60,696 nt of DNA from Gammaproteobacteria bacterium (GCA_002705795.1 PAHG01000006.1:3534-64229); one strand, 5' to 3'. Shown: positions 2,338 to 19,344, counted from the first letter of the stretch. Numbers and translations are program-made. The notes: generated from the letters alone by a model not told the origin.

Positions 2338-3818
2338 GCGTTAGCTACCTTTCTCTTCTTGAACCCTGTCCAGAACGGTGTCGAGAGGTTTACGGCGGTT
2401 AGGGCAAAGAAGAAAAGAACGATTGGGCTCTCCATTAGGGCGAGGAAGTTGTTGTCGTAAATAATCATGGACTGACTGAAGGCTTCCTCGACCATTTTTC
2501 CTAGAATTAATCCCATCACAAGAGGTGCGGCACCGAAACCGTGGCGGTTCATGAAGTAACCGATTAGGCCGGCGACTAGCATCACGTACACGTCCACAAA
2601 AGAGGAGCTAGATGAGTAGGCTCCGATGACCGCAAAGATAAAGACCGCGGGCCATAATAATTGCTTCGGTATGAACGTGACTAGCGAGAAAAATTTAGCG
2701 CCAGCGAGGCCGATTGCCAGGAATGCAACGTTTGCGAACAACATTGCACCGAAGATGGCATATAAAAACTCGGGCGTCTCATTCAGGAGGTACGGGCCGG
2801 GTCTAAATCCGTGCATAATCAGGGCTGCCAAGATAAGGGCTGTCGACCCTGAGCCTGGAATACCGAGCGCAAGTGTCGGAACCATGGCACCCCCGGCGGC
2901 TGAGTTATTTGCTGCCTCTGGTCCCACAATCCCTTCTGGTGTGCCGGTCCCGAACTCATCTTTCTTTTTACTGAAGCGCTTGGCTTCGTTGTATCCAATG
3001 ATCGCCGCTACGGTTGAACCCTCGGCAGGCAAGATACCTATAAATGTGCCTATCCCTGACGAACGTAAGATACAGTTTTTCAATTCTTTGAGTTCTTCCC
3101 ATGTCGGCAATTTCATGGCTTTTGCCTCAATCCGCTCGACGGTTTTATTCAGTGTGCTGGATTGGCTCAGAAGCTCCCCCATAGCAAACAATCCGATCAG
3201 CACAGGAACAAAATGGATTCCTTCATCGAGATCTGGGATATCAAACGTGAACCGTTCGACGCCGGTTGTCAGGTGGATTCCGACTGTCGCCAGTAGGACC
3301 CCTACCCCACCGGAAATTAGATTTCGAAGCGAGCTCTTGCCTGTCATCGAAGCTAGCATCGATAGAGCAAATACTGCTAAAGCGAAATATTCTGGGGGAC
3401 GGAACTCGAGAGCGACGGCGGCTAAGGTCGGAGCAGCAACGATGAAAACGATCAGACTGATAATTCCACCCGAGACCGAGGAGACCGTTGCGAGGCCTAA
3501 AGCGCGCCCAGGCTCGCCGCGTTTTGCCATAGGGTAGCCGTCCAAGGCCGTGGCAACCGCGGGGGGTGCGCCAGGTGCATTAATCAAAATCGCTGTGATG
3601 GACCCACCAAACGTGCCCGCGCAATACAACGCGGCCATCATGGCGATAGCGGGGATCGGTTCTAACTGAATCGTAAATGGAGTTAACAGTGCGATAGCCA
3701 TCGGTGAACTGAGGCCCGGGAGTGCTCCGACGAGAACTCCAATCAAAACGCCCAGTGTGATTAAGATGATATTTTCGATCTCTAAGAGGAGCGAGAAACC
3801 TTCAATGATTGCGTCCAT
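2334..3818 (-). CDS. tctA: tripartite tricarboxylate transporter permease, TctA family
   Basis: LPGLSSPMAIALLTPFT, YCAGTFGGSITAILINAPGAPPAVATALDGYPMAKRGEPGRALG, GIPGSGSTALILAAL: TctA hallmarks. Confidence 0.93.
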   Translation of the reverse strand: MDAIIEGFSLLLEIENIILITLGVLIGVLVGALPGLSSPMAIALLTPFTIQLEPIPAIAMMAALYCAGTFGGSITAILINAPGAPPAVATALDGYPMAKRGEPGRALGLATVSSVSGGIISLIVFIVAAPTLAAVALEFRPPEYFALAVFALSMLASMTGKSSLRNLISGGVGVLLATVGIHLTTGVERFTFDIPDLDEGIHFVPVLIGLFAMGELLSQSSTLNKTVERIEAKAMKLPTWEELKELKNCILRSSGIGTFIGILPAEGSTVAAIIGYNEAKRFSKKKDEFGTGTPEGIVGPEAANNSAAGGAMVPTLALGIPGSGSTALILAALIMHGFRPGPYLLNETPEFLYAIFGAMLFANVAFLAIGLAGAKFFSLVTFIPKQLLWPAVFIFAVIGAYSSSSSFVDVYVMLVAGLIGYFMNRHGFGAAPLVMGLILGKMVEEAFSQSMIIYDNNFLALMESPIVLFFFALTAVNLSTPFWTGFKKRKVANA

Positions 3819-3840
3819 CAGAATTGAACCTTTTTAATTT

Positions 3841-4374
3841 TTATAAAGCGATGCCAAAAATCCCGGAATCGAAATAGACGCTCAGGACTTTTGAGAAAAC
3901 CAGAGACACCACGACGGGGAACATTCCTGCAAAAAGTAAAATTGTAATAAAATTCTTGTAGCCCCAAAGCCGCGGCATCACTAAACAGATAGTGATCATT
4001 GTTAGTAGCATTCCGAGGTAAGGGGCCGCAAGCACGACCACAATAAGGAATGCGATAGTTATTTTCGTGAGTGGGTGAACCGGTTCGCTGCGGTCTTTGT
4101 CGATACTTTTTCCCTTCTTGGCCAAGAGAATATGCTCGAAGGGCAGGAAGCAGGCGAGGGCACCAATTATCCATAACAACAACTGTGGGTACATCGCCGG
4201 TTGAATGTTCTGGGCGAAGAGCGGAGATACCTCGTCAAACTGGGTTGTTAGGTAAAAGAGATAGCCGACGCCGGCTAAAATGATCGCGGTTACAGCCAGA
4301 TCAACTGGATGCACGAGCCCCGCGGCCCGCGCATCATCAGTTGTTGGAGCTGATGAGTTTTGATTATCCATCAA
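3841..4374 (-). CDS. tctB: tripartite tricarboxylate transporter TctB family protein
   Basis: Small four-helix membrane protein between tctA and tctC; FPxx-type QLLLWIIGALACFLPFE. Confidence 0.82.
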   Translation of the reverse strand: MMDNQNSSAPTTDDARAAGLVHPVDLAVTAIILAGVGYLFYLTTQFDEVSPLFAQNIQPAMYPQLLLWIIGALACFLPFEHILLAKKGKSIDKDRSEPVHPLTKITIAFLIVVVLAAPYLGMLLTMITICLVMPRLWGYKNFITILLFAGMFPVVVSLVFSKVLSVYFDSGIFGIAL

Positions 4375-4389: not shown

Positions 4390-5382
4390 TTACTTAACAA
4401 TACCAAGTTCTTTGAGGGCCTGAGCGGCCTTCGCGTACTCTTCTTTAAGGCCCTTGTCCCAAACATCTGTACCAGCAACGCTTGACTCGACTTTTAATCC
4501 AGCGGTCGCTAGGTAGTTAGCGAATACCTCGTGAGACATCGCCTTGACGAGACCCTTAGAGATTTTTTCTACCTTATCTCTCGGAGTCTTCGCCAGAACC
4601 GCATATCCACGGGTTGTCGAGGTCTTTACGTTGTAGCCCATTTCGTAGGAAGTACGGACATCCGCGTAGTCTGGTAGGCGTTCTTCTGCCAGCAGTACGA
4701 GAGGTATAGCAGACCCGTCGGCGATTAATGTCGCTGCCTCACTCACGTTCGGTAAAGTCGCATCGATCGCACCAGACAATAGAGCCTGGAGCATTTCACC
4801 GCCCGAGCCAAACGGAACCACCTTGAATTTGATGCCGGCCGCTTTTGACAGCTGCGCGAGACCGATGTGTTCGGTACCACCGACCTGGGCTACGCCGAAA
4901 TTCAGGGTCCGTTTCTTTGACGCTGCGACTAGTTCCTCGAACGTTTTTGTTTTACTTTTTTTGCCAACGACCAAGAACGTGGGATCGTCCATCGCACGCG
5001 CTACGCCAACAATATCATCTATTTTCATGTCCGACTTACCCTGCACCATCGTGTAAAGGTGGGACTGGGTCAGCGCCATGATTGTACATCCGTCGGCAGG
5101 CTTGGACAGAACATAGTTCTGGGCCTTCGCCCCGGATCCGCCACGTTTACTGATCACGAACATGTCCTGTGAAAGCGTGCGACGTGACCGAATCATCATC
5201 ATCCGCGCGGTAACATCAGTCCCTCCGCCATACGACGAGTGGATTACCACTTCGATAGGCTTATCACACACCGGAGGGTCTTTCTTTTTATCGCCATGTG
5301 AGGCGGCAAACGCTGTTGACGACAACGCGAAGGTTGCGCAAACGGCGAGGGTAGTCTTTTTGAGAGTCTTCATAGGAATCAT
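4390..5382 (-). CDS. tctC: tripartite tricarboxylate transporter substrate-binding protein (TctC/Bug family)
   Basis: Signal peptide; VVIHSSYGGGTDVTARMM, NFGVAQVGGTEHIGLAQL; next to TctAB. Confidence 0.88.
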   Translation of the reverse strand: MIPMKTLKKTTLAVCATFALSSTAFAASHGDKKKDPPVCDKPIEVVIHSSYGGGTDVTARMMMIRSRRTLSQDMFVISKRGGSGAKAQNYVLSKPADGCTIMALTQSHLYTMVQGKSDMKIDDIVGVARAMDDPTFLVVGKKSKTKTFEELVAASKKRTLNFGVAQVGGTEHIGLAQLSKAAGIKFKVVPFGSGGEMLQALLSGAIDATLPNVSEAATLIADGSAIPLVLLAEERLPDYADVRTSYEMGYNVKTSTTRGYAVLAKTPRDKVEKISKGLVKAMSHEVFANYLATAGLKVESSVAGTDVWDKGLKEEYAKAAQALKELGIVK

Positions 5383-5407: not shown

Positions 5408-5435
5408 AGTTCGAACTAAAGGTATCCGAGATACC
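5408..5435. promoter_or_regulatory. Palindrome pair in tctC/lyase divergent promoter: AGTTCGAACT (5408-5417) and GGTATC-CGA-GATACC (5421-5435)
   Basis: Perfect inverted repeats read directly; outer CTAAA (5416-5420)/TTTAG (5440-5444) extends the second. Confidence 0.55.
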
Positions 5436-5463: not shown

Positions 5464-5477
5464 ATTGTCAACACAAT
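5464..5477. promoter_or_regulatory. Candidate GntR-type operator ATTGTCAACACAAT
   Basis: Arms ATTGT/ACAAT; core TTGTCAACAC matches the motif at 5540, 11328, 11425 and 19269. Confidence 0.5.
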
Positions 5478-5539
5478 CTGTGAGCTTAATTCGATAAACC
5501 CGATAGAATTTTTGTACATAGGGAAGATCGGTAAAATTT

Positions 5540-5549
5540 TTGTCAACAA
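5540..5549. promoter_or_regulatory. Candidate GntR-type operator TTGTCAACAA
   Basis: Inverted repeat TTGT-CA-ACAA, 13 nt before the ATG at 5563. Confidence 0.5.
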
Positions 5550-5562
5550 TCAGGTATTTAAA

Positions 5563-6381
5563 ATGAACCACCAGCACACGCTTACGATCTTGCCCGGTGT
5601 CTACGATGGGTTGGGCGCGTCGATCGCGAGACACGTGGGTGCCAAGGCGGTCTACGCCAGTGGGGGCGCTATAGCGCGGAGTTTTGGGCTGCCAGACCTG
5701 GGGTTGGTCTCTATGACGGAAATGGCCTCGAGACTCGAGTCGATAGTTTGTGCCTTTGACGGGACGGTCTTTGCGGACGGGGACACGGGCTACGGTGATA
5801 CCCAGCACGTTCGGCGGATGGTCCAAATGTTTGAGGCCGCTGGTATCAAAGGGGTACATATTGAAGACCAGAGCTTCCCAAAACGTTGCGGACACCTCGA
5901 AGGCAAGTCGCTAATTTCGAAAGATTCGATGTGCCGTAAAATCGAGTCCGCAGTGAAAGCTCGGCGAGCCGATGATTTCTTAATCATCGGGAGAAATGAC
6001 GCGATCGCGATTGAAGGATTCGCTATGGCAATTTCGCGCGCACAATCAATGGTTGAGTCAGGCGCAGATATTGTTTTCATTGAGGCCCCGGAGACGGCGG
6101 AACAAGTCGAGTCGATACCCGGCTTTTTCGAGGTACCGGTCTTGATCAACATGTTTCCCGGCGGCAAAACGCCGTACACCAGCCCAGACTCGTTAGAAGG
6201 GTTTGGGTACCGGTATATGATTGTACCGTCTGATGTACAGCGGGCCTGCATTCAGGCTACCGAGTCAGTCCTGAGATCAATCGTCGAGAAAGGTAACTCC
6301 GAGTCTGTATCCGATTTATTGAGCCCCTTAGGGGACCGTGATCGCTTCGTTGATCAGGACCGCTGGCTGGAGGAGTCTTGA
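5563..6381 (+). CDS. isocitrate lyase/PEP mutase superfamily lyase (PrpB-like)
   Basis: FADGDTGYGD and PKRCGH motifs of 2-methylisocitrate lyase-type enzymes; start taken at MNHQHTLTILPGVYDGLGASIA. Confidence 0.88.
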   Translation: MNHQHTLTILPGVYDGLGASIARHVGAKAVYASGGAIARSFGLPDLGLVSMTEMASRLESIVCAFDGTVFADGDTGYGDTQHVRRMVQMFEAAGIKGVHIEDQSFPKRCGHLEGKSLISKDSMCRKIESAVKARRADDFLIIGRNDAIAIEGFAMAISRAQSMVESGADIVFIEAPETAEQVESIPGFFEVPVLINMFPGGKTPYTSPDSLEGFGYRYMIVPSDVQRACIQATESVLRSIVEKGNSESVSDLLSPLGDRDRFVDQDRWLEES

Positions 6382-6382
6382 T

Positions 6383-7354
6383 GTGGGTGAGTTGAGGATC
6401 TTATCAGAGCAAACCGTGAAGCGTTGCCTGGACGAAGAAATCGATGCCTGCTTTGAGGTATGCGCGGAAGCTTACCGTTACTACGGTCGAGTCGGCTCGG
6501 TGTTATCAGAGCCGAGCTCGCTATATCTCCAGTTACCATCTGACCGGCCAAAAAAATGCCGTTTAAAGGGAGCGCACTTTACTGATACCGGAGTCGCAGG
6601 CTTCCGTCTCGCGAGCCCAGGGGCTTACTATACTTGGGTGGTCGACTCGCAGACCGGTCAACCGGAGGGATTGGTTGCCGAGAATTGGCTACACCGGCGA
6701 CGCACGGCGGTCACTGGTGCTCTAACACTCCGTTGGTTGCGTCCTAATCTCGGGGTGGTCGCCTTGGTCGGTGCCGGTAAGATTGGGTTTGAGTGCGCCG
6801 TCGCGTTGGGGCACGCGTTCCCGGACGCGAGTATTATCTTGGGGTGCCGCGACGAGGGACGGGCTGAGCTCTTCAGGGACAGACTGCCAAACTCTGTGTC
6901 CTCGCGAATGAGCATCCAGGCGATAGAACCAGCGATACGAAGCGCGGAGGCGGTGCTGACGATCACTAAGGCAAGTGCTGCATTTATTCAGGGCGATTGG
7001 CTACGGGACGGATCAGTCGCCCTGTCCATGGGTGGTGTTCCCGAGTTTCAATTCTCCACCTGGCAACGGAGCCAGCATTTTGTCCTTGACGATTTGGGTT
7101 ACGCGCTGAAGCAGGGTGATCTCCACCATTGGGTGAAATCTGATGGGTTAAGTGTAGAGGAGATTCGGACTCGAACGACGGCCTTGATTGGTGATGTGGC
7201 GCTGGACCCAGAAAAATATCAATCCATTTGTAGTGGATTGACGCTGGCTGTGATTCAAGGCATGGCCGTCTGCGACGTCGCTATGGCTGGACTGGTACTG
7301 GAAAGAGCCAGCGCCTTGAACGCGGGCAGGGTTGTTGATCTCGATTCTTGCTAG
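6383..7354 (+). CDS. ornithine cyclodeaminase/mu-crystallin family protein
   Basis: VALVGAGKIGFECAVALGHAFPDASIILGCR plus LDDLGYALKQGDL; likely GTG start at 6383 (ORF extends to 6338). Confidence 0.82.
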   Translation: MGELRILSEQTVKRCLDEEIDACFEVCAEAYRYYGRVGSVLSEPSSLYLQLPSDRPKKCRLKGAHFTDTGVAGFRLASPGAYYTWVVDSQTGQPEGLVAENWLHRRRTAVTGALTLRWLRPNLGVVALVGAGKIGFECAVALGHAFPDASIILGCRDEGRAELFRDRLPNSVSSRMSIQAIEPAIRSAEAVLTITKASAAFIQGDWLRDGSVALSMGGVPEFQFSTWQRSQHFVLDDLGYALKQGDLHHWVKSDGLSVEEIRTRTTALIGDVALDPEKYQSICSGLTLAVIQGMAVCDVAMAGLVLERASALNAGRVVDLDSC

Positions 7355-8193
7355 GCGGCGAATGTTTTCAGCTGCGTGCGGTGCATGATACGCCGAGTAT
7401 TTCCGTCGAACGCGTCTCGTCTGTGCATCACGAGATGGTTTTGCCACATCACAACGTCACCAACTTCCCACTCGTTGTGCCAGGTCCACTCTGGGTCAGT
7501 GGCGTGTGACCAGACTTCATCGAGCAGCCGATTACTCTCGTCTACCGTTAAACCCACAATACAGGCATGCGGTCGGCGGCCGAGAAACAGGGCTCTATTG
7601 CCCTTGGTATCTGTCCAGACCATTGGGTGTCTCGCTCCCGGAGTTTCTGAAGGGTCCGTAGTCTCGCTGTACCCTTTTCTCAGCATTCCGGCGCTGTTGT
7701 GAGCCGCGTCATGGATCAATGTTTTTCCTTCGATTTCTCTTTTGAGGGAGTCTGGCAGCGCCTCGTATGCGCGAATCATACTAGAGAAATACGTGTTGCC
7801 TTGTCCCACCGGCACCTCCAGCGAGTACAGGATCCCAGCGACAGGGGGTTGCTCGATATAAGTCATATCCGCGTGCCAGACGGCTTCTCCGTCACCGAGA
7901 TTCCCTATCGGTGTCCCGTCTGGCGTCTTGACGTTTGAAATCACATTAATCTCGGGGTATTCCGGTAGGAATGTAATCCCGTATGGATTTGGGCCTGGCG
8001 GATCAAGTTCCCCAAAATATTTACTGAATCGGAGGAGGTCATCATCTCTGATTGACTGGTTTCTAAATCGTACGACGAGGTGCTCGTCCCACGCAGCCTT
8101 TATATTTTCAATAACGCCAGAGCTAAGGGGTTTCGAAAGATCTATACCAGTGATATTGGCTCCGATGTTGGGGGATAGCCGCACAATCTCCAT
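7351..8193 (-). CDS. TauD/TfdA family 2-oxoglutarate-dependent dioxygenase
   Basis: HxD facial triad in EAVWHADMTYIEQPP and distal His/Arg in VMHRRDAFDGNTRRIMHRTQL. Confidence 0.9.
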   Translation of the reverse strand: MEIVRLSPNIGANITGIDLSKPLSSGVIENIKAAWDEHLVVRFRNQSIRDDDLLRFSKYFGELDPPGPNPYGITFLPEYPEINVISNVKTPDGTPIGNLGDGEAVWHADMTYIEQPPVAGILYSLEVPVGQGNTYFSSMIRAYEALPDSLKREIEGKTLIHDAAHNSAGMLRKGYSETTDPSETPGARHPMVWTDTKGNRALFLGRRPHACIVGLTVDESNRLLDEVWSHATDPEWTWHNEWEVGDVVMWQNHLVMHRRDAFDGNTRRIMHRTQLKTFAA

Positions 8194-8194
8194 G

Positions 8195-9286
8195 CTAATT
8201 CTCCGTCTCTCCGTATATCGCCACTCTTACTGTCTGGGCATCGATGACTCGCCGATTTAGGTTCAGTGAGTCTGCTTTTTTAAGTACCATGTGTCCACCG
8301 TCAAATTTGAGGGGTGGCTCCAAGATCCGTGAATCGTCTTGGATCTTGAAGCACCCATTGAACTCACCGGCACGGTCTAGGTACCGCTCAGATACCAGTG
8401 CTTCTAGATAGCAATTAATGTCCGAACCCAGGCCATCGCCAAGCACGACTTGAATGCCGAGTTCATGAGCTTTTTCGATAGCGTTACACAGGTTACCTAG
8501 CGAGCCAAACCGCTTCAGTTTGACCTTACAAAAGCCGACCCCGGGCATCATAGATGCGCGCTCAATATCTTCGATGCTGCAGATTGGTTCATCCAGCATT
8601 AGGGGAACAGGAGATGCTTTAGCGACCCGCCCATTACCATCCCAATCGTCGGTATCGCAAGGCTGTTCAAATAATTCGCAAACGCCGGGATCGAGTACTT
8701 GACTGAGCTCGATGGCGTCGTTTACTGAATATGCACGGTTGGCATCCACACGAATCATTCCTCGATTTTTGAGTGTGTCTTGTATGATCTGAACTCGCTC
8801 TCTATCAGCTTTGACATCTTTCCCGACCTTGATCTTAAAAGTTCTAAACCCTAGCTCAATTTTTTCATTAACCTCGATCGGTATCTGCTCTCGCGTTGTT
8901 GCTGAAAATGCAGTTAAAACTGGAATGCGGAGATCATTTTCTGGGGTCCATCGCCCCGGTTCTTTGAGCTGGTCGAGAGCGTTCAGTATGGCCGAGGCGG
9001 CAACAGGGCTTTGAGTTCGTTCACTACTCAATCGATCAAAGACCGCGTTGATATCTGAGCCAACTATCGCTTCTGCAGACGAGGTTAGGAACGACCAGCC
9101 ACCCTCGCGTGTTTCAGAGCTGGACCCGGGGGAGATATGTTGCTCACCAAACGCTGTCTCACCGTCACTGGTAGTTATCGTTACAAGATAGGGTTCGAAT
9201 GACTCGAATGTCCTGTAGCTAAGCGCGTAGGGCTTAATAAGCGGTAGGTCAAGGTGCCGGACTTCGATACCCTGAATCGCTGTCAT
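8195..9286 (-). CDS. enolase superfamily protein, muconate cycloisomerase subgroup
   Basis: FKIKVG (KxK), VDANRAYS, LFEQP, LDEP, KVKLK ordered metal and acid/base residues. Confidence 0.85.
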   Translation of the reverse strand: MTAIQGIEVRHLDLPLIKPYALSYRTFESFEPYLVTITTSDGETAFGEQHISPGSSSETREGGWSFLTSSAEAIVGSDINAVFDRLSSERTQSPVAASAILNALDQLKEPGRWTPENDLRIPVLTAFSATTREQIPIEVNEKIELGFRTFKIKVGKDVKADRERVQIIQDTLKNRGMIRVDANRAYSVNDAIELSQVLDPGVCELFEQPCDTDDWDGNGRVAKASPVPLMLDEPICSIEDIERASMMPGVGFCKVKLKRFGSLGNLCNAIEKAHELGIQVVLGDGLGSDINCYLEALVSERYLDRAGEFNGCFKIQDDSRILEPPLKFDGGHMVLKKADSLNLNRRVIDAQTVRVAIYGETEN

Positions 9287-9894
9287 AACATAGTCCAGGG
9301 GAACGTTTTTCGATGGTTATCTTCGAATGCTGTGATTGCATCGTTGAATTCCAGCGACAGATCGATTTCGTTTAAGCCATTCATAAGGCAGCGCTTTTGA
9401 AACGGATCTAGGTCGAAGTCAACCACTTCCCCGGATGGTAGTGTGATGCTCTCTTGATCAACGTTGACCGATACTTGCGGCGGTTGTGCGTGGTCGAGCC
9501 CCTCTTGAATCGATAGTATGGTCTCTTGCTCTAACCGGGCGGTTAGGACACCGTTTTTGAGACAGTTTGCTGCAAATATCTCTCCGAAGCTTGGCGCGAA
9601 AACAGCTCGAAATCCGGAGTCATAGAGTGCGTAAACAGCCCCCTCTCTTGAGCTTCCAGACCCAAAGTTTGCGCCAGCAAACAGAATTTTGGCGGTCTCG
9701 AATTTCCGCTGATTTAGCGAGAAGTCCGTATTGATGTTTCCGGCATCTGTGCGTCGGATGTCGTGAAACAAATACTGTGCATAGCCCACCGCTCGCGGCT
9801 TTTTGATGAATCGTGCAGGAAATAATTGGTCTGTGTTGACGTTTGCCAGGCGCAGTGGTGCGGCGATCGCGTTGAGTTGAATTAAAGGCTCCAT
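9283..9894 (-). CDS. leuD: 3-isopropylmalate dehydratase small subunit-like (LeuD family)
   Basis: NVNTDQLFPARF, GANFGSGSSREGAVYAL swivel-domain motif. Confidence 0.87.
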   Translation of the reverse strand: MEPLIQLNAIAAPLRLANVNTDQLFPARFIKKPRAVGYAQYLFHDIRRTDAGNINTDFSLNQRKFETAKILFAGANFGSGSSREGAVYALYDSGFRAVFAPSFGEIFAANCLKNGVLTARLEQETILSIQEGLDHAQPPQVSVNVDQESITLPSGEVVDFDLDPFQKRCLMNGLNEIDLSLEFNDAITAFEDNHRKTFPWTML

Positions 9895-11300
9895 GAGCGT
9901 GCCTCCTCGTAGGAGCTGATATTCTCGAATCGGCCCGTGATCGAGGCCGCGGCCGCCATAGCTGGGCTGACGAGGTGGGTACGACCTCCCTGTCCCTGTC
10001 TGCCCTCGAAATTTCGATTAGAGGTTGACGCGGCGCGTTCACCGCTTTCTAGCATGTCGCCATTGATGCCCACACACATGGAGCATCCCGGAGCCAGCCA
10101 TTCGGCGCCGGCGAGTCGGAAAATCTCATCTAGGCCCTCGGATTCAGCAGTTCGTTTGACTTGCTCGGAGCCGGGGACAATCATCGTCGGGATCCTACAA
10201 GTCTGTCCTTTCATCACCTGCGCGGCGACCCTCAGGTCCTCGATACGACTGTTTGTGCAAGAGCCGATGAATACACGATCAAGTTGGATCGATTGGATCA
10301 ACTGATTTGCATTCAGGCCCATGTATTCCAGAGCTCTCATCATCCGGCCCTTTCGTTCTGGATCCTGCTCCATGTCCGGGTCAGGTATGCACCCGGTGAC
10401 GTCAGTCACCATCTCCGGATTCGTACCCCAGGTCACCTGTGGAACAATCTCTTTTGCTTCTATCCGCACCTCGCGGTCAAAGACCGATCCCGGTTCTGTC
10501 TTAAGTGTCCGCCAGTAGGAAAGAGCCTGATCCCAAAGTGGTCCATTGGGTGCTATTGGTCTGCCTTGCATATAGTCGAATGCTTTTTTATCGGGCGCGA
10601 CAAGGCCTGCCCTCGCGCCTGCTTCTATTGACATATTACAGACCGTCATTCTAGCTTCTACCGATAGTTCGTCGATTGTGTCGCCATAATATTCAATGGC
10701 GTAGCCGACGGCTCCACCGCTACCGATTGTTTTGATTAGAAATAGGATCAGGTCCTTACTTGACACTCCCGCCTTTCTCTGACCTGAGATTGTCACTCGT
10801 AGTGTTTTTGGCTTTGACCTCCAGAGTGTCTGCGTGGCGAGGACGTGTGCGACCTCGGAAGAACCAATGCCGAACGCGTAGGCGCCGAGGGCTCCGTGTG
10901 TAGACGTGTGAGAGTCCGCTCCGGCAATCACAAGACCTGGCTGAGTGATTCCAAACTCGGGCCCGACGACGTGTAAGATGCCTTGGTAATCATGACCTAG
11001 GCCGAATAGTTCGATGCCATAGGTTGCGGTATCTGATGTGATCAGCTGGACCATGTTCCGTATCTCTGGGTCCTGGATGCCTTCGACTCCGAGCTCTCTG
11101 TTTCGTGTTGGTACGTAGTGATCTGAGAATCCAAACGCCTGCTTGGGGTTACGAATAGTCCGGCCCTCGCGTCGTATTTTGTCGAATGCGTGAAAGGAGT
11201 TTTCCTGTAGAAGGACCCGGTCCACATACAGGAGCGATTCGTTTCCTCTGTCGGTAACGACGTGTGTAGACCAAATCTTGTCAAAAAGGGTAGAGGGCAT
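9882..11300 (-). CDS. leuC: 3-isopropylmalate dehydratase large subunit-like (LeuC/aconitase family)
   Basis: GADSHTSTHGALGAYAFGIGSSEV; Fe-S cysteines in FIGSCTNSRIEDL and PGCSMCVG; start MPSTLFDKIWSTHVV at 11300. Confidence 0.9.
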   Translation of the reverse strand: MPSTLFDKIWSTHVVTDRGNESLLYVDRVLLQENSFHAFDKIRREGRTIRNPKQAFGFSDHYVPTRNRELGVEGIQDPEIRNMVQLITSDTATYGIELFGLGHDYQGILHVVGPEFGITQPGLVIAGADSHTSTHGALGAYAFGIGSSEVAHVLATQTLWRSKPKTLRVTISGQRKAGVSSKDLILFLIKTIGSGGAVGYAIEYYGDTIDELSVEARMTVCNMSIEAGARAGLVAPDKKAFDYMQGRPIAPNGPLWDQALSYWRTLKTEPGSVFDREVRIEAKEIVPQVTWGTNPEMVTDVTGCIPDPDMEQDPERKGRMMRALEYMGLNANQLIQSIQLDRVFIGSCTNSRIEDLRVAAQVMKGQTCRIPTMIVPGSEQVKRTAESEGLDEIFRLAGAEWLAPGCSMCVGINGDMLESGERAASTSNRNFEGRQGQGGRTHLVSPAMAAAASITGRFENISSYEEARSWSL

Positions 11301-11327
11301 GAGTTTCTCTCGATTTTTATTAATATT

Positions 11328-11337
11328 CTGTTGACAA
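11328..11337. promoter_or_regulatory. Candidate operator; minus strand reads TTGTCAACAG
   Basis: Shares TATTGTCAACA with the 5464 site; upstream of leuC-like gene. Confidence 0.45.
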
Positions 11338-11423
11338 TACCGGCTCGAATATCGCACTGTTCGTGCCGTGAATCAACGTCTTCACTTGATAGCGCGTCTT
11401 TGTACTATCCGCAACAAACAAAA

Positions 11424-11435
11424 ATTGTAGACAAT
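11424..11435. promoter_or_regulatory. Candidate operator ATTGTAGACAAT adjacent to TSUP start
   Basis: Inverted repeat ATTGT-AG-ACAAT ending 1 nt before the GTG at 11437. Confidence 0.5.
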
Positions 11436-11436
11436 A

Positions 11437-12186
11437 GTGGGTGATATCGACTTCCTGTTCATTTTTCTGGTAGCCGCCGCGGCATTTAGCTCTGCTGTTT
11501 TTCATTCGTTTTCTGGCTTCGCAGGGGGGCTTGTGCTCGCGGTCATGCTGGCGCCACTTCTTGGGATTAAAGAAACGGTTCCAGTGGTCGCGACGGCTTT
11601 GATCATTAGTAACATCGCTAGAATTTGGGCGTTTCGGAAATCGGTCGCTATTAAGGAATACCTGGCGGTATTCCTAACAGGGCTCCCGTTTATTGTACTC
11701 AGCGCCTATGTTTATGTGTCTCTGCCGGTCAGCGTCGTCGCATTGGTATTGGGTCTGTTCTTATTGGTCTCGATCCCCCTCAATAGAATCCTCAAGAAGA
11801 AAGAGGTCAAGGTCGGGCTGCAAGGCCTGGCGCTTGCCGGTATCCCTTATGGAATTGTGTCAGGTAGCACGTTTGGTGCGGCCGTGATGTTGGCGCCTTT
11901 CCTTATAGGTGCGGGTCTGGCTGGTGAGATGATGATCGGGACCGTTGCGATGCTAGGGTTTAGCTTGAATGTCACCAAAACAATCGTGTTCGGGATGTCT
12001 CCGCTTTTAACCAACGAGCTAATGGTTACGGGTATATTGGTCGGTCTTTGTACAATGCCCGGCGCCTACGTCGGGCGCTGGTTGGTGCGAAATACGTCCG
12101 TCCGAGTACATGCACAATTCATGGAGGTCTTTATCGCGTCTGGCGGAATATTATTTCTCTACGAGGCCTATCAAAACTGGGTTTAA
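11437..12186 (+). CDS. TSUP (TauE/SafE) family sulfite exporter-like permease
   Basis: Hydrophobic 249 aa, VFHSFSGFAGGLVLAVMLAPLLGIKETVPV; second repeat GIPYGIVSGSTFGAAVMLAPFLIGAGL. Confidence 0.87.
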   Translation: MGDIDFLFIFLVAAAAFSSAVFHSFSGFAGGLVLAVMLAPLLGIKETVPVVATALIISNIARIWAFRKSVAIKEYLAVFLTGLPFIVLSAYVYVSLPVSVVALVLGLFLLVSIPLNRILKKKEVKVGLQGLALAGIPYGIVSGSTFGAAVMLAPFLIGAGLAGEMMIGTVAMLGFSLNVTKTIVFGMSPLLTNELMVTGILVGLCTMPGAYVGRWLVRNTSVRVHAQFMEVFIASGGILFLYEAYQNWV

Positions 12187-12189
12187 TCC

Positions 12190-13035
12190 ATGACAGTGCT
12201 TCCAACTCCGCCCCAAGAATATACTCACATGCTAGCCCGTGCTTCGGTTACAAAGGTCGATGTGGATGGGTTGGGTGTGCAGCTTTATCGGTGGGGTAGC
12301 GGATCGAACTGTTTTGTGTTGTTGCACGGCGGCTATGGTTCATGGGCCCACTGGATCAAAGTCATCCCCCAGCTCGAATCGCATGCTACTGTGATTGCGC
12401 CTGATATGCCGGGCTTTGGTCTGTCAGATACCCCCGTTGAACCGCACACGGCCGAGTCAGTTGCCGGGCCGCTCGCCTCGGCACTTTTTGAACTCATTGG
12501 TCAGAAAAAAATCATACTCGCGGGATTTTCTTTTGGTGGTGCTATCGCGGGGCATGTTGCATCCTTAATATCGAATCAGATTAAACATTTGGTGCTGCTC
12601 GGCCCCGGGGGGACCGGTGCGCCGCGTGGTGAGATGCCTGATTTAATTCGGCGTACCAAACAGATGTGTCGCGCAGAGATTCGTGAGGCCCATCGCAGAA
12701 ATCTTGAAATTCTGATGGTCAAAGATCCTTCTTGTATCAACGATCTCGCGCTGTACATTCAGGAAACGAACACGGGAATGCATCGTCTGAAGAGTCGTCC
12801 GATATCGGCTACTGATACACTGGTGCAAGCGTTGGAAGGTGCGCGTTATCCCGTCACGGTGTTATTTGGCGAGTTCGACGCATCGGTCGGTAGCTACCGT
12901 CTTGAGCGTGAAAAAATTCTGAGGCAGACCGTTCCTCATGTATCGATTGAAGTGACTCGGGACGCGGGTCATTGGCTTATGTGGGAGTCTGATACATTAG
13001 TCGCTGATCGGCTGTTGGCCCTGCTTTCCAAATAA
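12190..13035 (+). CDS. alpha/beta hydrolase
   Basis: LLHGGYGSWAHW, APDMPGFGLSD, GFSFGG nucleophile elbow, DAGHWLMWE. Confidence 0.9.
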   Translation: MTVLPTPPQEYTHMLARASVTKVDVDGLGVQLYRWGSGSNCFVLLHGGYGSWAHWIKVIPQLESHATVIAPDMPGFGLSDTPVEPHTAESVAGPLASALFELIGQKKIILAGFSFGGAIAGHVASLISNQIKHLVLLGPGGTGAPRGEMPDLIRRTKQMCRAEIREAHRRNLEILMVKDPSCINDLALYIQETNTGMHRLKSRPISATDTLVQALEGARYPVTVLFGEFDASVGSYRLEREKILRQTVPHVSIEVTRDAGHWLMWESDTLVADRLLALLSK

Positions 13036-13842
13036 ACCCAGCCTCTCACACGTGTCTCGAAAATCTGGGCGCTCGAGGACTGCTGTTTGCCGCGCGACAT
13101 TATCTGACCACGTGCCTACTTCCGGTTCTCCAAATTTCTCTGGGTACCTTGACTTAGGTGGGCCGAAAACACGGTTGAGTGTCTCGTCGTATTGATCGAT
13201 CTCTTTGAGATCGAGCGGTTGGTAGGTGTCGCGATGAATGACAACCGACTGAGGTAGTCGGGGCAAGATCTTTTGCTCCTGGTTTTTTGGGTAACCAAGT
13301 GCGCATGCGCATATTGGGAACGCGCCCTTGGGTAGCTCGAGCAGGCTAGCAACAGAGTCGGTTGATTCTCGAACCTTGGATATTGGGCACGTGCCGATGC
13401 CAAGACCCTCCGCGGCAGCAATCATAAATGCAAGTGCGAGGGACGCATCGACGGTCGTGTTGAGGAAAGCATCGGTTTGTTCCCAGCGGTATTCGTGTTT
13501 TCTGGCCAGGTTTATCTGTTGGGTTCGGTGCGTGTCTCCGATGACAAAAACCAGCATCGGTGCATCAAATGCCCAGTGAGTAGATGGAAACATCTGAACG
13601 AGTTTGGCTCGGATTAGAGGGCTAACTACATCGACAAAACTATACTGTTGGAGGTTTGATTTGCTGGGTGCGGATTGTGCCGCCGCAAATAAGAGCTGCT
13701 TAATCTCTTCGTTTATTGGTTGATCGGAGAATGTCCTGCAGGACTGATGAGACAGGATAGTGTCTATAGTCCGACGGCTTTCGTTCTTTGGGACAGGGTT
13801 GAGGGATCCGTATCGCAGATGCTCGGTGAGTGGCTTATTCAT
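12997..13842 (-). CDS. nitroreductase family protein
   Basis: HQSCRTFSDQPINEEIKQLLFAAAQSAPSKSNLQQYSFVDV; GLGIGTCPISKVRE. Confidence 0.87.
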   Translation of the reverse strand: MNKPLTEHLRYGSLNPVPKNESRRTIDTILSHQSCRTFSDQPINEEIKQLLFAAAQSAPSKSNLQQYSFVDVVSPLIRAKLVQMFPSTHWAFDAPMLVFVIGDTHRTQQINLARKHEYRWEQTDAFLNTTVDASLALAFMIAAAEGLGIGTCPISKVRESTDSVASLLELPKGAFPICACALGYPKNQEQKILPRLPQSVVIHRDTYQPLDLKEIDQYDETLNRVFGPPKSRYPEKFGEPEVGTWSDNVARQTAVLERPDFRDTCERLGLFGKQGQQPISD

Positions 13843-15383
13843 ATTTTGACCTTTTGGTAAAATGTAGTCAGATGTGATCTCGGATGATCCAGCGCATCAT
13901 TTATTGGCTCCCAGGGGATACCGCCATGACCCAAAAGCGCTGGCAGAAGACTGTGTTCCCAGTCTAGGTAACCTTGAGCATCCTTAAGGTCGCCCAGGTG
14001 CCTGTTCGGGAAAAACCGGGCCTGATCTACAGGTTGTGTCTCGAGATCGATATCTGATGTGTCTATTAAGTACGTGGGTATAGAGTTCCAGTCGATGCAG
14101 ACCGGCTCTGATAGGCCGAGCTGCTTGACTAACTCCGTTGTATGCGTGATCTGTGAGTAATCGCACACAAATAGGCATCGATCAAATTTTGAGATTGCAG
14201 TGAATTTTGATCTGGGTAGCCATTTCGAATTATTGAGTCGGCTCTTCTTAAATGCCTTGCTGGAGCGGATATCGAAAATGCAGTCGACATCGAGCCAGTT
14301 TTCATCCCAGTGGACGCTTATCGTGGTGTCGTGTCTAGAAGGCACTGGTTCTGGAATATATTTTTCTCTTAGCTGTGCATCCCATCCCATGCGGCGAAGC
14401 CATAAGACTGATACCACGCAATCCAACTGATTGGGCCCTTGAACGACTATGGGCAAGTTGTGCGTGCCCAGGTACTGATCTGTGCTCTGGATCAGTGTGG
14501 TTGGGGATATGTCATTGTCAGCTATTTGATCTTCGCTGACGGTGATGAGTCGATAATGGGTTCCGGTCTTTGACCATTGTTTCTCGCAATCTTTTGTTAC
14601 CACGGGTAAGTTGAATTTCTCGATCAGGTGGTGAGCTTTCCTTGCCATGGATTCATTAGACAAAAGATCTGCAGCAGATCGTTGATTGTTGAATGAACGG
14701 TCTCCACCTGCGAGCTCCCAACCTTGTGTGCCGCCGATTATAAAGTGGATGGGCGCCTCAAAATCCTGGTCGGCCATGGTCTGTGCTGCGATGATGCCCC
14801 GTGTACGACCCGCGCAGTGCACGTAGATTGAACTATTCGAAATTGAAAGTGCTCCGAGCCGTCCGGTGGGGCAGTGGATTGAATCCGGTAGGCTGAATTT
14901 TTGGTACTCTGAGAAAGGTCTTACATCAAATTGATACTGAGGTGGCGCTTCCATGGCTGCTTTAGCGGCGATGGTCCTAATGTTGCCGGTGTCTTCTACC
15001 CATTCACCGAATGCTTTTGATGGAGTGTACTCTCCGCCCCATGTCGGGAGGCCGCTGTTTTTCCAGCTACTGAATCCTCCATCGATTAATCGAGGCTGGA
15101 GATTTGTGATTTGAGTAATCACCGTCGCCGCCCAGAGCGAGAGGGTCTTTTCTTGTCCGATAATCAGGGCGACCCCTGTTTCGTTTCCGAACAATTGGTT
15201 GAGTTTCTCCTCAAGGCTGTCAATGGGTGCATTGATGGAAAACACGGGGTGATCATCGACATATGTTTTGCGGTCACGTACATCGATTAGAGCGATACGC
15301 TCGGTCCGACGAAGTAGGTCAAGAGCTTCACTGACCCGTATGACCTGAATTTTATTCCGCGCTGCATTATCAAGCGTCATCAT
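13839..15383 (-). CDS. multi-domain rhodanese-like protein (four apparent rhodanese modules)
   Basis: ALIDVRDRKTY, FDVRPFSEYQ, FDIRSSKAF repeats; HCAGRTRG active loop; GGFSSWKNSGLP and GGTQGWELAGG domain ends. Confidence 0.82.
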   Translation of the reverse strand: MMTLDNAARNKIQVIRVSEALDLLRRTERIALIDVRDRKTYVDDHPVFSINAPIDSLEEKLNQLFGNETGVALIIGQEKTLSLWAATVITQITNLQPRLIDGGFSSWKNSGLPTWGGEYTPSKAFGEWVEDTGNIRTIAAKAAMEAPPQYQFDVRPFSEYQKFSLPDSIHCPTGRLGALSISNSSIYVHCAGRTRGIIAAQTMADQDFEAPIHFIIGGTQGWELAGGDRSFNNQRSAADLLSNESMARKAHHLIEKFNLPVVTKDCEKQWSKTGTHYRLITVSEDQIADNDISPTTLIQSTDQYLGTHNLPIVVQGPNQLDCVVSVLWLRRMGWDAQLREKYIPEPVPSRHDTTISVHWDENWLDVDCIFDIRSSKAFKKSRLNNSKWLPRSKFTAISKFDRCLFVCDYSQITHTTELVKQLGLSEPVCIDWNSIPTYLIDTSDIDLETQPVDQARFFPNRHLGDLKDAQGYLDWEHSLLPALLGHGGIPWEPINDALDHPRSHLTTFYQKVKI

Positions 15384-15654
15384 AACACTCGCTTCGTTAT
15401 CACGTTTTGATAGGAAACTTTTAAAATATTGTCAGTATCTGTGACCCACACAACCTCAATCTCAGCAAATCCTCGCCGAAGCATCATTCAGCCGGTTTTT
15501 CCACCTGCTTGAAGTTTCCGTTGTTCCTTATACATCTTAACCGGATTGACTGGCGAGGAAGATCAGGTTTGCCGCCCGACTACCCAGGTTGACGTATCCC
15601 TTGCTACTCGAGCTGTCTGATCTCCGGCAGCTACTGATTGTCAAACCCGACCGC

Positions 15655-15669
15655 TTGATAGATTATCAA
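15655..15669. promoter_or_regulatory. Inverted repeat TTGATA-GAT-TATCAA upstream of D-tartrate dehydratase
   Basis: Perfect 6-bp arms with 3-nt spacer in a 359-bp divergent intergenic region. Confidence 0.45.
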
Positions 15670-15742
15670 CGCGTTATCATCTTTGGGTTTTAGATTTCAT
15701 TCACACCGTGCACACAATTTACTTTCTAATCTTGGTGACCAG

Positions 15743-16915
15743 ATGCGTATAACAGCAATCCACGAATCAGTTGAATCAATTGCCTCAGATATTCAGAACG
15801 CCTATATCAATTTTTCGAAGATGACTTGTTCGGTCGTCGCCGTCGTGACCGATCAACTAATAGACGGCAAACCAGTCGTTGGGTATGGCTTTAATTCAAA
15901 TGGCCGATATAACGCGTCTGGTATTTTAAAGGACCGTCTGATTCCACGATTGCTTGAGGCAGATCCAGGTCGATTAATCGATGGCGATGGATATCTCGAC
16001 CCCCATCGGGCGTGGGACATTATGATGACTAATGAAAAGCCTGGTGGGCATGGTGAGCGGTCAGTGGCCGTCGGTGTTCTTGATATGGCGCTCTGGGACG
16101 CACTCGCAAAGACGCAAGGGATCCCGCTTTACCAACTTCTCGCGGAGAGGGCCGGGAGGCAGGCCGATTCTAGGGTTTGGGTTTATGCAGCTGGGGGCTA
16201 CTACTACCCGGGCAAAGATATCGTCGGCCTGCAAGACGAGTTCCGACAATATCAGGACTTGGGCTACACCGTCTGTAAAATGAAAATTGGGGCGGCTGAT
16301 CTCTCTCATGATTGTGATCGTATCGAGGCAGCATTGAAGGTCGTCGGTGAAGGAAATCTATGCGTCGATGCCAACGGGCGATTCGATTTAAAAACCGCGC
16401 TCGCATATGCAGAGGCGTTGAAACAGTATCGACTATTCTGGTACGAGGAAGCGGGTGACCCATTAGACTTCAAAATACAGACAGCGCTCAGTGAGGCGTA
16501 TGACCTGCCAACTGCGACGGGTGAAAATCTATTTTCGCATCAAGATGCTCGTAACCTGCTCCGTTATGGCGGTATGCGTCCGGAGCTAGATTATCTTCAG
16601 TTCGATTGCGCCCTATCCTATGGTCTGGTCGAGTATTACCGAACACTCAGTGTCTTGTCAGAGTATGGTTGGTCGTCACGGCGGGTCGTCCCGCACGGGG
16701 GGCATCAGATGTCGTTGCATATCGCGGCTGGTTTGGGGCTGGGTGGCAATGAATCCTACCCTGGTGTTTTCCAGCCCTTCGGAGGCTTCTCCGACGAGTT
16801 AACGGTCATAGATAGTTATGTGGGGCTGCCTACATCGCCAGGACTCGGGCTCGAGAACAAGGCAAATTTCAGGACCATGCTGGTCAGTGCGTTTGGTGAT
16901 CAGTTGAGGATTTAA
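15743..16915 (+). CDS. tarD: D(-)-tartrate dehydratase (mandelate racemase/enolase superfamily)
   Basis: NEKPGGHGERSVAVG, YAAGGYYYPGK, CKMKIG, VDANGRFDL, WYEEAGDPLD, TGENLFSHQDARNLLRYGGMRP, PHGGHQMSLHIAAGLGLGGNESYP. Confidence 0.87.
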   Translation: MRITAIHESVESIASDIQNAYINFSKMTCSVVAVVTDQLIDGKPVVGYGFNSNGRYNASGILKDRLIPRLLEADPGRLIDGDGYLDPHRAWDIMMTNEKPGGHGERSVAVGVLDMALWDALAKTQGIPLYQLLAERAGRQADSRVWVYAAGGYYYPGKDIVGLQDEFRQYQDLGYTVCKMKIGAADLSHDCDRIEAALKVVGEGNLCVDANGRFDLKTALAYAEALKQYRLFWYEEAGDPLDFKIQTALSEAYDLPTATGENLFSHQDARNLLRYGGMRPELDYLQFDCALSYGLVEYYRTLSVLSEYGWSSRRVVPHGGHQMSLHIAAGLGLGGNESYPGVFQPFGGFSDELTVIDSYVGLPTSPGLGLENKANFRTMLVSAFGDQLRI

Positions 16916-17898
16916 ATGATCCAGTGGATTCCAGCAATTACCCACGCTGCTAGAAGAGTCGTTTCAACGATGATTAGTGCGACTGACCGAATCCCATAAC
17001 GCGCGATATCCTGGAGTGAGGTCTTCACTCCTAGTGCTGCGATCGCGGTTACTAAAAATGTGCTCGATATAACGTTCGTTGTTTGAATGAGCGTTTGGGG
17101 AATGGCGCCGAGGGAGTTTACGGCCACGAAAAAACAAAAAGCGACTAAAAAATACGGGAAGGAAACATTACCAGTCGGGGTATCGGACCGCCCTGTGATG
17201 GTTAGCGCGATGATCAGCACAACTGGGACTAATAGGGCGACCCGAAACAACTTAACTATAGTCGCAGTATCGCCGGTATTAGTATTCATGCCGTAGCCGG
17301 CTCCTACTACTTGTGCAACGTCATGGATCGTCCCACCCAGAAACAACCCAGATTGAAAGTCGTCAAATCCGAGCTGATCGGCAACGAGCGGATAAAGAAT
17401 CATTGCAATCGTCGACAGTGTTGTAACCGTGACAACAGTGACGATTGTAGCGTTTTCATTTTCTCGGTTGTTGGGCAGGACACTTGAGATAGCGAGCGCC
17501 GCTGAGGCGCCGCAAATTCCTACGGAGCCTCCGCTAATGATTCCGAACGCCCGGCTGCTTCTGAATAATTTCGCGAGAAATACCCCAATAATTAGAGACA
17601 GCAGAATACCTCCTGCGATCCATCCCAGGATGTCAAAACTGAAGTTAGCGATATCGTCGAACGTGATCCTTAGTCCAAGGAGAGCGACTCCAATTCTCAA
17701 GATATTTCGGGAGCTAAATTCAATTCCTTGCCGGTAGGTTGGTGACTTATCCAAGAATCCAAGACCCATCCCTAGGAGTAATGCAAACAACATTTGGGGC
17801 GCACCATATTGCTTCCCGAGGAAGGCCGCGACGAGCCCTATAAAGAAGCAAAGGAGAGCGCCCGGAGTAAGTTCTCTTAGTCTAACGTAAATCATCAA
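16912..17898 (-). CDS. YeiH/PSE (putative sulfate exporter) family protein
   Basis: RIGVALLGLRITFDDI, GGSVGICGASAALAISSVLP, GGTIHDVAQVVGAGYG. Confidence 0.88.
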   Translation of the reverse strand: MMIYVRLRELTPGALLCFFIGLVAAFLGKQYGAPQMLFALLLGMGLGFLDKSPTYRQGIEFSSRNILRIGVALLGLRITFDDIANFSFDILGWIAGGILLSLIIGVFLAKLFRSSRAFGIISGGSVGICGASAALAISSVLPNNRENENATIVTVVTVTTLSTIAMILYPLVADQLGFDDFQSGLFLGGTIHDVAQVVGAGYGMNTNTGDTATIVKLFRVALLVPVVLIIALTITGRSDTPTGNVSFPYFLVAFCFFVAVNSLGAIPQTLIQTTNVISSTFLVTAIAALGVKTSLQDIARYGIRSVALIIVETTLLAAWVIAGIHWII

Positions 17899-18592
17899 GA
17901 GCTTCGTTTAGGTCGGAAATGGATTCTGCCACGATTTCCCAGTTATCTGAGGGCTCGAGGTCGAAGGGTTGGTCCGGGCCGTACTCCGTTGGGCGCCTGA
18001 CAAAAGCAGTCTGAAGCCCCTGGGCCCTGGCTGCCGTTAGGTCTGAGTTATGTGCCGCAACCATCATGCATTCCGCAGGCTCCAAACAGAGTGCCTTACA
18101 TGCTCGGGTGTATGCCTCGGGCGCTGGCTTATATGTGCGAACAATTTCGGAGCCGAGGATTATGTCCCAAGAGAACTGGTTGTACTTTGCTAGATTCACA
18201 GTGAGAGCAAGGTGGCCGTTTGATTGTGATGCGCAGATAAACCGATTCTTCAGTCGTTCAATTCCAGCCACACTATCAGACCAACAAGGTAGGCGATGCC
18301 AGGCCATTATCAGCCATCTTTGGTGCTCCTCTACACCGAGATCGAATCCTAGTTCCTCAGCGACCGTCATTAGATTTTCCGAGTGGAGTACGTCAAGGTC
18401 AACATAGTCTCTGCTTCCATCACGTATAGGTTCCATCGATGGCTCGTATCGCGCGCGCCATGCATCCGCAACAATTTCAGGCTCGTGCTTAGAGGGGTAG
18501 GTTTGGAAGTGGACTCTCAGATCCCGAATGATGCCTGATCGCCAGTCAACAACTGTTCCGAACACATCGAATAGTAACGCCTTGGGTATCAT
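17882..18592 (-). CDS. haloacid dehalogenase type II (HAD superfamily)
   Basis: LLFDVFGTVVDWRSG, SQSNGH, YKPAPEAYTRAC, VAAHNSDLTAARAQGLQTAFVRRPTEYGP. Confidence 0.88.
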   Translation of the reverse strand: MIPKALLFDVFGTVVDWRSGIIRDLRVHFQTYPSKHEPEIVADAWRARYEPSMEPIRDGSRDYVDLDVLHSENLMTVAEELGFDLGVEEHQRWLIMAWHRLPCWSDSVAGIERLKNRFICASQSNGHLALTVNLAKYNQFSWDIILGSEIVRTYKPAPEAYTRACKALCLEPAECMMVAAHNSDLTAARAQGLQTAFVRRPTEYGPDQPFDLEPSDNWEIVAESISDLNEALDDLR

Positions 18593-19242
18593 TGTGATTG
18601 TTCAATATGCACGAGCAGGTCGTTAAAACGCTCGCCTTGAATCATGACGTGCTGTCGAGCGGCGAGATCGGCTTTGTCCGCGTTACCTCGTTTCACCGCT
18701 TCGATGATTTCACAATGTTCTTTAAGTGACTGCGACATGCGCCCCCGAACACGGAGCTGCAGGCGCCTGAAGGACTGGAGTCTTCTGCGTAGAGAGCGCG
18801 TCTCGTGTGCCAGGAACTCGTTTCCGCATGCGTTATATATGCACTCATGGAACTCTACGTTTCGGCGATAGTAGAGGTCGCTGTCGTTTGCCTCGATAGC
18901 ATCTTCGCATCCGCCGTTTGCCTGTTCCAACGCGCTAAGTTGTGTATCGCTAATGCGGCGGGCTGCCAGGCGTGCGCACATACCCTCGAGCTCGCTCATC
19001 ACCTCAAACATTTCGATCATTTGACGGAGTGATGGGGACTTTACAAAGCAACCACGCTTCGGGATTTGCGTTGCTAGCCCTGTCCCTACGAGTTGGAGAA
19101 GTGCCTCGCGCACAGGGGTGCGGGATACTTGGAATCGTTCGGCTAGCGAGGCTTCGTCAAGCCTTTCGCCATCTTTTAGTTGCCCCGTCGCTATCTGCTC
19201 TTCGACCCCTTGAAAGACTCGGGTAGCGGCTCGATTACTCAT
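18589..19242 (-). CDS. GntR family (FCD-type) regulator, probable MatR-like malonate regulator
   Basis: wHTH LDEASLAERFQVSRTPVREALLQLVGTGL, FCD-type C-terminal domain; divergent from TRAP/malonate genes; start taken at MSNRAATRVF. Confidence 0.85.
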   Translation of the reverse strand: MSNRAATRVFQGVEEQIATGQLKDGERLDEASLAERFQVSRTPVREALLQLVGTGLATQIPKRGCFVKSPSLRQMIEMFEVMSELEGMCARLAARRISDTQLSALEQANGGCEDAIEANDSDLYYRRNVEFHECIYNACGNEFLAHETRSLRRRLQSFRRLQLRVRGRMSQSLKEHCEIIEAVKRGNADKADLAARQHVMIQGERFNDLLVHIEQSQ

Positions 19243-19268
19243 GTTAGGAATCTCGTTGCATGTTATTT

Positions 19269-19307
19269 TTGTATACGATAGTTTCTGTGCTGCATACACA
19301 GTATGCA
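19269..19307. promoter_or_regulatory. Candidate regulator sites: TTGTATACGA (19269-19278) and TGCATAC-ACA-GTATGCA (19291-19307)
   Basis: Palindromes read directly in the regulator/dctP divergent promoter. Confidence 0.6.
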
Positions 19308-19344
19308 AGCCGATATAACTCATAACAACCGGCAGGAGCCTGTA

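Follow-up and report, generated by a model that had tools for sequence, protein, structure and literature searches.

Known FCD regulators and the locus analyzed

The Pseudomonas aeruginosa regulator PmiR, which we take to be the product of the same gene as PrpR of that organism, senses 2-methylisocitrate. Relief by 2-methyl(iso)citrate is known from the P. aeruginosa PrpR/PmiR data. The GntR-family protein PrpR represses prpB and prpC, and the purified protein binds the region upstream of prpR that holds the predicted operator ATTGTCGACAAT (PMC9765439). A further FCD repressor, Atu1419 of the VanR subfamily, acts as a tetramer bridging two palindromes 190 and 109 bp apart and looping the DNA (PMC7797058). 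According to Suvorova et al. (PMC4494728), the residue at position 39 of the recognition helix is correlated with the centre of the operator, and Thr and Asn tend towards A/T. Here we analyze a stretch of 60,696 nucleotides from a Gammaproteobacteria bacterium (GCA_002705795.1, PAHG01000006.1:3534-64229; hereafter the window), in which five operator-like boxes lie near genes for carboxylate catabolism. Four of these boxes are probably the operators of one FCD-type GntR regulator, herein referred to as GntR2, which is encoded outside the window and whose dimers would pair and repress. The fifth box, at 19269, would be the operator of a MatR-like regulator and part of a separate module.

GntR2 shares with PrpR/PmiR (PA0797, consensus ATTGTCGACAAT) the 12-nt palindrome, Gly at position 39, paired boxes, and a PrpB-like lyase as a predicted target. 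Thus, the ATTGTCGACAAT operator and the Gly39 that mark the PrpR/PmiR group are both found for GntR2. One difference lies in the genes controlled, which for GntR2 would be a cluster encoding a Tct importer, LeuCD, a lyase, and a TSUP permease. Atu1419 resembles GntR2 in its FCD fold and in sequence (E = 5e-18). Unlike GntR2, it has an AT-centred operator (ATGTATACAT), Thr at the specificity position 39, and longer spacings.

Operator boxes and their conservation

The boxes were searched with the loose pattern TTGTNNACRN and with the strict palindrome form TTGTNNACAA, and genome-wide counts were compared with a reversed-pattern control. In a preliminary description of this DNA, five boxes in three divergent promoters were assigned to one motif family. 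All five were found at the given coordinates and strands, and the three promoters stand; the single family does not, since four boxes in two promoters are of one kind and the remaining box is of another. These boxes, and a decayed one, are the following:

5465-5474, plus strand: predicted GntR2-type box TTGTCAACAC, weak asymmetric form (ATTGTCAACA followed by C), 83 bp upstream of tctC
5540-5549, plus strand: predicted GntR2-type box TTGTCAACAA, strong palindrome, 14 bp upstream of the lyase ATG and 75 bp from the box at 5465
11328-11337, minus strand: predicted GntR2-type box TTGTCAACAG, weak asymmetric form (ATTGTCAACA followed by G), 28 bp upstream of leuC
11425-11434, plus strand: predicted GntR2-type box TTGTAGACAA, strong palindrome (ATTGTAGACAAT), ending 2 bp before the TSUP start codon and 97 bp from the box at 11328
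15663-15672, plus strand: decayed GntR2-type box, identified by alignment, in the divergent promoter of rhodanese and enolase-2; reads TTATCAACGC in this genome and CAGRTTGTNNACAATCTG in seven relatives
19269-19278, plus strand: predicted MatR-type box TTGTATACGA of the other family, operator TTTTGTATACGATA, in the matR/dctP divergent promoter

Counts by themselves would not support the finding of operators. The loose pattern was seen 14 times in the window versus 13.95 expected, and 50 of 100 shuffles reach as many. A mild excess was found for TTGTNNACAA (3 versus 0.84 expected; 5 of 100 shuffles), and one of its three matches in the window, at 52553, sits within an open reading frame (ORF). 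Genome-wide (1.79 Mb, 31 contigs), there are 28 matches to TTGTNNACAA versus 18 to the reversed pattern; at least 9 of the 11 sites checked on other contigs are within ORFs. Because TTGTNNACRN is at chance level in the window, the case for the boxes rests on conservation.

For the box alignments, nine genomes of the genus were compared; G002 and G021 are included in the 9/9 counts at leuC/TSUP. The genus belongs to the OM252/Litoricola clade, in which G001 is the cultured isolate LSUCC0096 (PMC8269220). In the box at 5465, ATTGTCAACA is identical in all nine genomes, and ACA is followed by C, G, or T and in none of them by A. The box at 5540 reads TTGTNNACAAT in 9/9 genomes, and the box at 11328 reads ATTGTCAACA(G/T), likewise in all nine. 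At 11425, ATTGTAGACAAT is kept in 9/9, the G014 variant having a changed centre and one end mismatch. Each of the two promoters contains one strong palindrome and one asymmetric box. In no genome does the asymmetric box end in A, an indication that its strength may be tuned. Pairs of boxes had been described in both divergent promoters, and their conservation in the relatives bears this out.

The distance between the boxes at 5465 and 5540 is exactly 75 bp in all nine genomes, with outer flanks that range over 80-90 bp and 23-33 bp. In the four most divergent genomes, the 62 bp between the tctC and lyase boxes are only 23-42% identical, versus 82-100% for the boxes and 100% for the first of them. 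The boxes at 11328 and 11425 are separated by 96-98 bp across the genomes, and the TSUP start codon keeps its position 12 bp from the operator start.

A position weight matrix (PWM) was trained solely on sites from the gntR2 and enolase-2 promoters of relatives, which are non-orthologous to the boxes of the window. Among the 64,218 positions ranked, the boxes at 11425, 5540, 11328, 5465, and 19269 took the 2nd, 3rd, 8th, 9th, and 56th ranks, respectively. The intact CAGRTTGTNNACAATCTG was found in the rhodanese/enolase-2 intergenic region of seven relatives and is decayed in this genome (15663) and in G019. Exact ATTGTNNACAAT sites lie inside the cluster in this genome (2/2), in G001 (4/4, one of them within dctM), and in G002 (3/3), and most of the others are also in the cluster; the sites examined in four cluster-less genomes (G003, G005, G008, and G016) sit within ORFs. 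The palindrome inside dctM of G001, at 422060, was rejected as a regulatory site, being intragenic. The four boxes at 5465, 5540, 11328, and 11425 are real, conserved predicted binding sites.

The candidate regulator and its alternatives

In total, six FCD proteins were found in the genome. The gene for GntR2 (G000:C2:1060-1761, likeliest start ATG at 1084) is located about 1.8 kb before the first base of the window (C2:3534), and the genes between gntR2 and tctC are, in order, ech, caiB, mmgE, sdr, tctA, and tctB. GntR2 matches the FCD profile with 92.4 bits (cut-off 24.3) and has the GntR winged helix-turn-helix (wHTH) and FCD domains of the FadR subfamily. The closest PDB chains are FCD regulators, the best being PmiR of P. 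aeruginosa (7xp0). The match to TIGR03338, a phosphonate regulator, is below the cut-off, so no phosphonate role is claimed for GntR2. A perfect palindrome (ATTGTTAACAAT; AAATTGTTAACAATTT) is found at the promoter of gntR2 itself, directly upstream of the gene. As expected for palindromic FCD operators with a GT-N(2-3)-AC core, ATTGTNNACAAT is predicted at the promoters of gntR2 and of its targets. A paralog outside the window had been allowed for, and GntR2, on the same contig, is the best candidate; the view of the boxes as FCD-GntR operators is likewise upheld as a prediction.

The genes gntR2, tct, lyase, leuCD, and TSUP, with their neighbours, are syntenic in the relatives of the genus, including G006 and G021. 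In G006, gntR2 is fragmentary, and in G021 the gntR2 region was not found. The G006 copy (L133, G006:C113 7780-8377) is a fragment match of 45% over residues 70-194 with an intact promoter palindrome; assembly error or decay is possible.

The recognition helix of GntR2 is SRGPIREA, with Gly39, and that of the MatR-like protein encoded in the window is SRTPVREA, with Thr39. The remaining FCD proteins of this genome have Thr, Thr, Gln, and Pro at this position. Among loci compared across the order, with shared ancestry uncorrected, Gly39 goes with a non-AT centre in 72 of 73, Ala is found with either kind of centre, and the sole Thr case having a site has an AT centre. Judged by these predicted helices, no FCD regulator of this genome other than GntR2 has Gly at the position that tracks non-AT centres.

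The MatR-like protein (18589-19242) is 36% identical to GntR2. Like the MatR/MdcY-type malonate regulators, it is an FCD GntR protein encoded next to genes for the uptake and activation of malonate, with a TTGTATAC core in its site; the genes downstream at matR/dctP encode a TRAP transporter, a protein of the arylmalonate-decarboxylase family, malonyl-CoA decarboxylase, and acyl-CoA synthetase. The box at 19269, which presumably resembles the MatR operator of R. leguminosarum, would be read by MatR and not by GntR2. One exact copy of TTTTGTATACGATA was found per genome, at matR/dctP where checked, with an invariant AT centre. It was also found in G003, G005, G009, G011, G012, G013, and G017, all of which are without the GntR2 cluster. 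The Tct/LeuCD boxes, in contrast, never have an AT centre and occur solely where the GntR2 cluster occurs. A site of the 19269 type, persisting without the cluster, AT-centred, and present once per genome, therefore tracks matR and not GntR2, and the link to malonate fails. A second conserved dyad (GCATAC..TATGC; 19295-19310) was seen in every genome compared, where it lies between the MatR box and dctP.

These data bear on three other explanations of the boxes. Chance matches to a short A/T-rich pattern would fit the chance-level count of TTGTNNACRN and the genome-wide ratio of 28 to 18 for TTGTNNACAA, but are scarcely credible given boxes kept in 7-9 genomes whose surrounding DNA has diverged to saturation, fixed spacing, and exact sites concentrated in the cluster. 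The preliminary description had named the regulator encoded in the window as a possible reader of all five boxes, by which the Tct/LeuCD genes would share a regulon with the malonate genes. The two modules do adjoin, GT-2nt-AC operators occur in the families of both regulators (PMC4494728), and the protein is an FCD GntR with 36% identity to GntR2. However, the own conserved site of MatR has an invariant AT centre, a different flank, and only the 56th PWM rank, and it is present in at least seven genomes without the GntR2 cluster; Thr39 of MatR fits AT centres, as does that of Atu1419 with ATGTATACAT. Both the assignment of the Tct/lyase/LeuCD/TSUP promoters to this protein and the common regulon are thus very improbable. 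Weak reading of the GntR2 boxes by MatR, or the reverse, might still give a partial joint response, as the cores differ at few positions and the proteins are paralogs in one neighbourhood. Such cross-talk is improbable: in all genomes compared, matR/dctP has no GntR2-type box, and the GntR2 promoters are likewise free of MatR-type boxes.

Spacing of the paired boxes and the proposed mechanism

In 392 genomes of the order, TTGTNNACAA pairs 40-101 bp apart were scanned, and the spacings were read off manually from the matches listed, to which all of the following values refer. Spacings cluster at 52-53, 62-64, and 72-75 bp. For a period of 10.5 bp, with genus duplicates removed, R = 0.55 (n = 73), a value that 20,000 uniform draws never reached. 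For pairs next to a PrpR-type gene, R was 0.84 (n = 31); taking a single pair from each of 14 families gave R = 0.80, and this family-level draw removes shared ancestry just partly. For pairs away from such a gene, R = 0.33 (p = 0.13). Spacings quantised in this way suggest same-face cooperation or looping. The 75 bp of the island falls in the 72-75 class, and 96-98 bp lies beyond the PrpR classes, near nine turns. One PrpR-type promoter (L185, G030:C14) has four boxes (1501, 1563, 1583, and 1646) with pairs 62 and 63 bp apart. We tentatively consider that PrpR-type FCD operator pairs, including those of the island, may be phase-locked, their spacing evolving in whole helical turns because same-face dimers must touch or loop.

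Probably, one carboxylate-sensing repressor controls the acid-catabolism cluster through the four boxes. From the sites, their conservation and spacing, the position of the regulator gene, and the correspondence of helix and operator, all seen in the sequence, we infer binding, repression, cooperation, and an inducer as follows. A GntR2 dimer would bind ATTGTNNACAAT, as a strong palindrome at the lyase and TSUP starts and as a weaker asymmetric box near tctC and leuC. Paired dimers on approximately the same helix face could cooperate, through contact between dimers or through a short loop, and so keep both divergent promoters off. The signal for release of GntR2 would be a branched di- or tricarboxylate akin to the substrate of the lyase; uptake (Tct), the LeuCD isomerase, and the lyase would then be switched on. 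GntR2 would also have an operator at its own promoter, and the box at 19269 would serve a MatR-like regulator of the malonate genes.

Alternatively, the boxes of each pair may act independently, one per operon, the fixed spacing being mere promoter placement; this would replace the pairing step and leave the choice of regulator untouched. An operon-specific class of double sites was described by Suvorova et al., the sites near the leuC, TSUP, and lyase starts fit occlusion of single promoters, and the leuC/TSUP spacing drifts by 1-2 bp. Nevertheless, we regard independent action as less likely than not: the 62 bp at tctC/lyase are saturated in sequence and unchanged in length in 9/9 genomes with both outer flanks varying, and PrpR-adjacent pairs shift in helical steps across 14 families.

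Several observations weigh against control of the cluster by paired GntR2 dimers. The spacing of the second pair, at leuC/TSUP, is not constant (96-98 bp), and, taking 10.5 bp per turn, the spacings of the island (75 and 97 bp) differ from the mean PrpR phase by 1.5-2.5 bp. The boxes at 5465 (rank 9) and 11328 (rank 8) are individually weak, near background in the PWM. The palindrome at the gntR2 promoter is absent or broken in G014 and G010; therefore, autoregulation would not extend to all genomes. An AlphaFold model of GntR2, of moderate confidence (mean predicted local distance difference test, pLDDT, 69.6), supports wHTH and FCD alone and is silent on oligomers. Furthermore, GntR2 is 26-33% identical to PrpR proteins, which share approximately 45-69% with the PrpR of G031. 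The gntR2 gene does not lie beside prpB-prpC-acnD; it adjoins ech/caiB and is 7.3 kb from the lyase gene. GntR2 is therefore treated as PrpR-like in its presumed working and is not filed as a PrpR.

Target genes and the function of the cluster

The genes next to the boxes are the following:

4390-5382, minus strand: tctC receptor gene (Pfam TctC, synteny), first gene of tctCBA-sdr-mmgE-caiB-ech; candidate GntR2 target
5563-6381, plus strand: lyase of the PrpB/isocitrate-lyase superfamily with the catalytic motif KRCGH; candidate GntR2 target
9882-11300, minus strand: leuC paralog, with leuD at 9283-9894; candidate GntR2 target
11437-12186, plus strand: TSUP/TauE-family permease (Pfam TauE); candidate GntR2 target
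18589-19242, minus strand: matR-like FCD GntR gene (Pfam GntR and FCD), flanking the malonyl-CoA decarboxylase and acyl-CoA synthetase genes

The LeuC of the island is probably catabolic. A second leuC (G000:C16:26694-28094) scores higher for biosynthetic LeuC, with 742 bits versus 610 for the island copy, and the cluster-less genome examined has only one full-length leuC, of the biosynthetic-looking kind. The idea that the island leuC is a replaced gene was dropped; from the start at 11300, its identity to relatives is 74-91%. The PrpB-like lyase, MmgE/PrpD protein, LeuCD, and Tct importer make the cluster look like a route of the methylcitrate type that would start from an imported acid as the putative substrate. 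No prpC or citrate-synthase-like gene was found among the cluster genes identified. No Pfam match was obtained for the presumed tctB (3818-4174, 118 amino acids), whose identity in close relatives is only about 50%, versus 94-99% for tctA and tctC.

Scans for sigma-70 promoters found none; one conserved pair at leuC aside, matches to TTGACA are part of the palindrome and uninformative. This promoter-like pair, TTGATT-17-GATATT, points to leuC in 7/7 correctly anchored genomes (the G002e and G021 rows left out) and would put the box at 11328 just past the start site. Between the leuC and TSUP boxes, AATATCGCACTGT (11348-11360) is strongly conserved, and its minus strand is part of the same pair. 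Two further elements were found in the tctC leader. The first, AGTTCGAACT at 5408-5417, lies 26 bp upstream of the start codon, with AGTTCGAAC kept in 9/9 genomes, and is not explained by GntR2. The second, at 5421-5435, is an inverted repeat (GGTATC-CGA-GATACC) with a similar form in several close relatives, possibly an RNA hairpin or another operator.

The proposed tie to malonate metabolism is thus corrected, the malonate genes forming a separate unit. For a carboxylate-catabolism cluster that had not been characterised, in a cosmopolitan marine clade that includes a cultured isolate, a predicted regulator, operator, and target set can now be given. The helical quantisation of pairs across the order bears on the question of cooperating or looping pairs as a general mode of action of FCD repressors. 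If phase-locking is true, same-face cooperation would be the rule for this regulator group and not the single known case of Atu1419.

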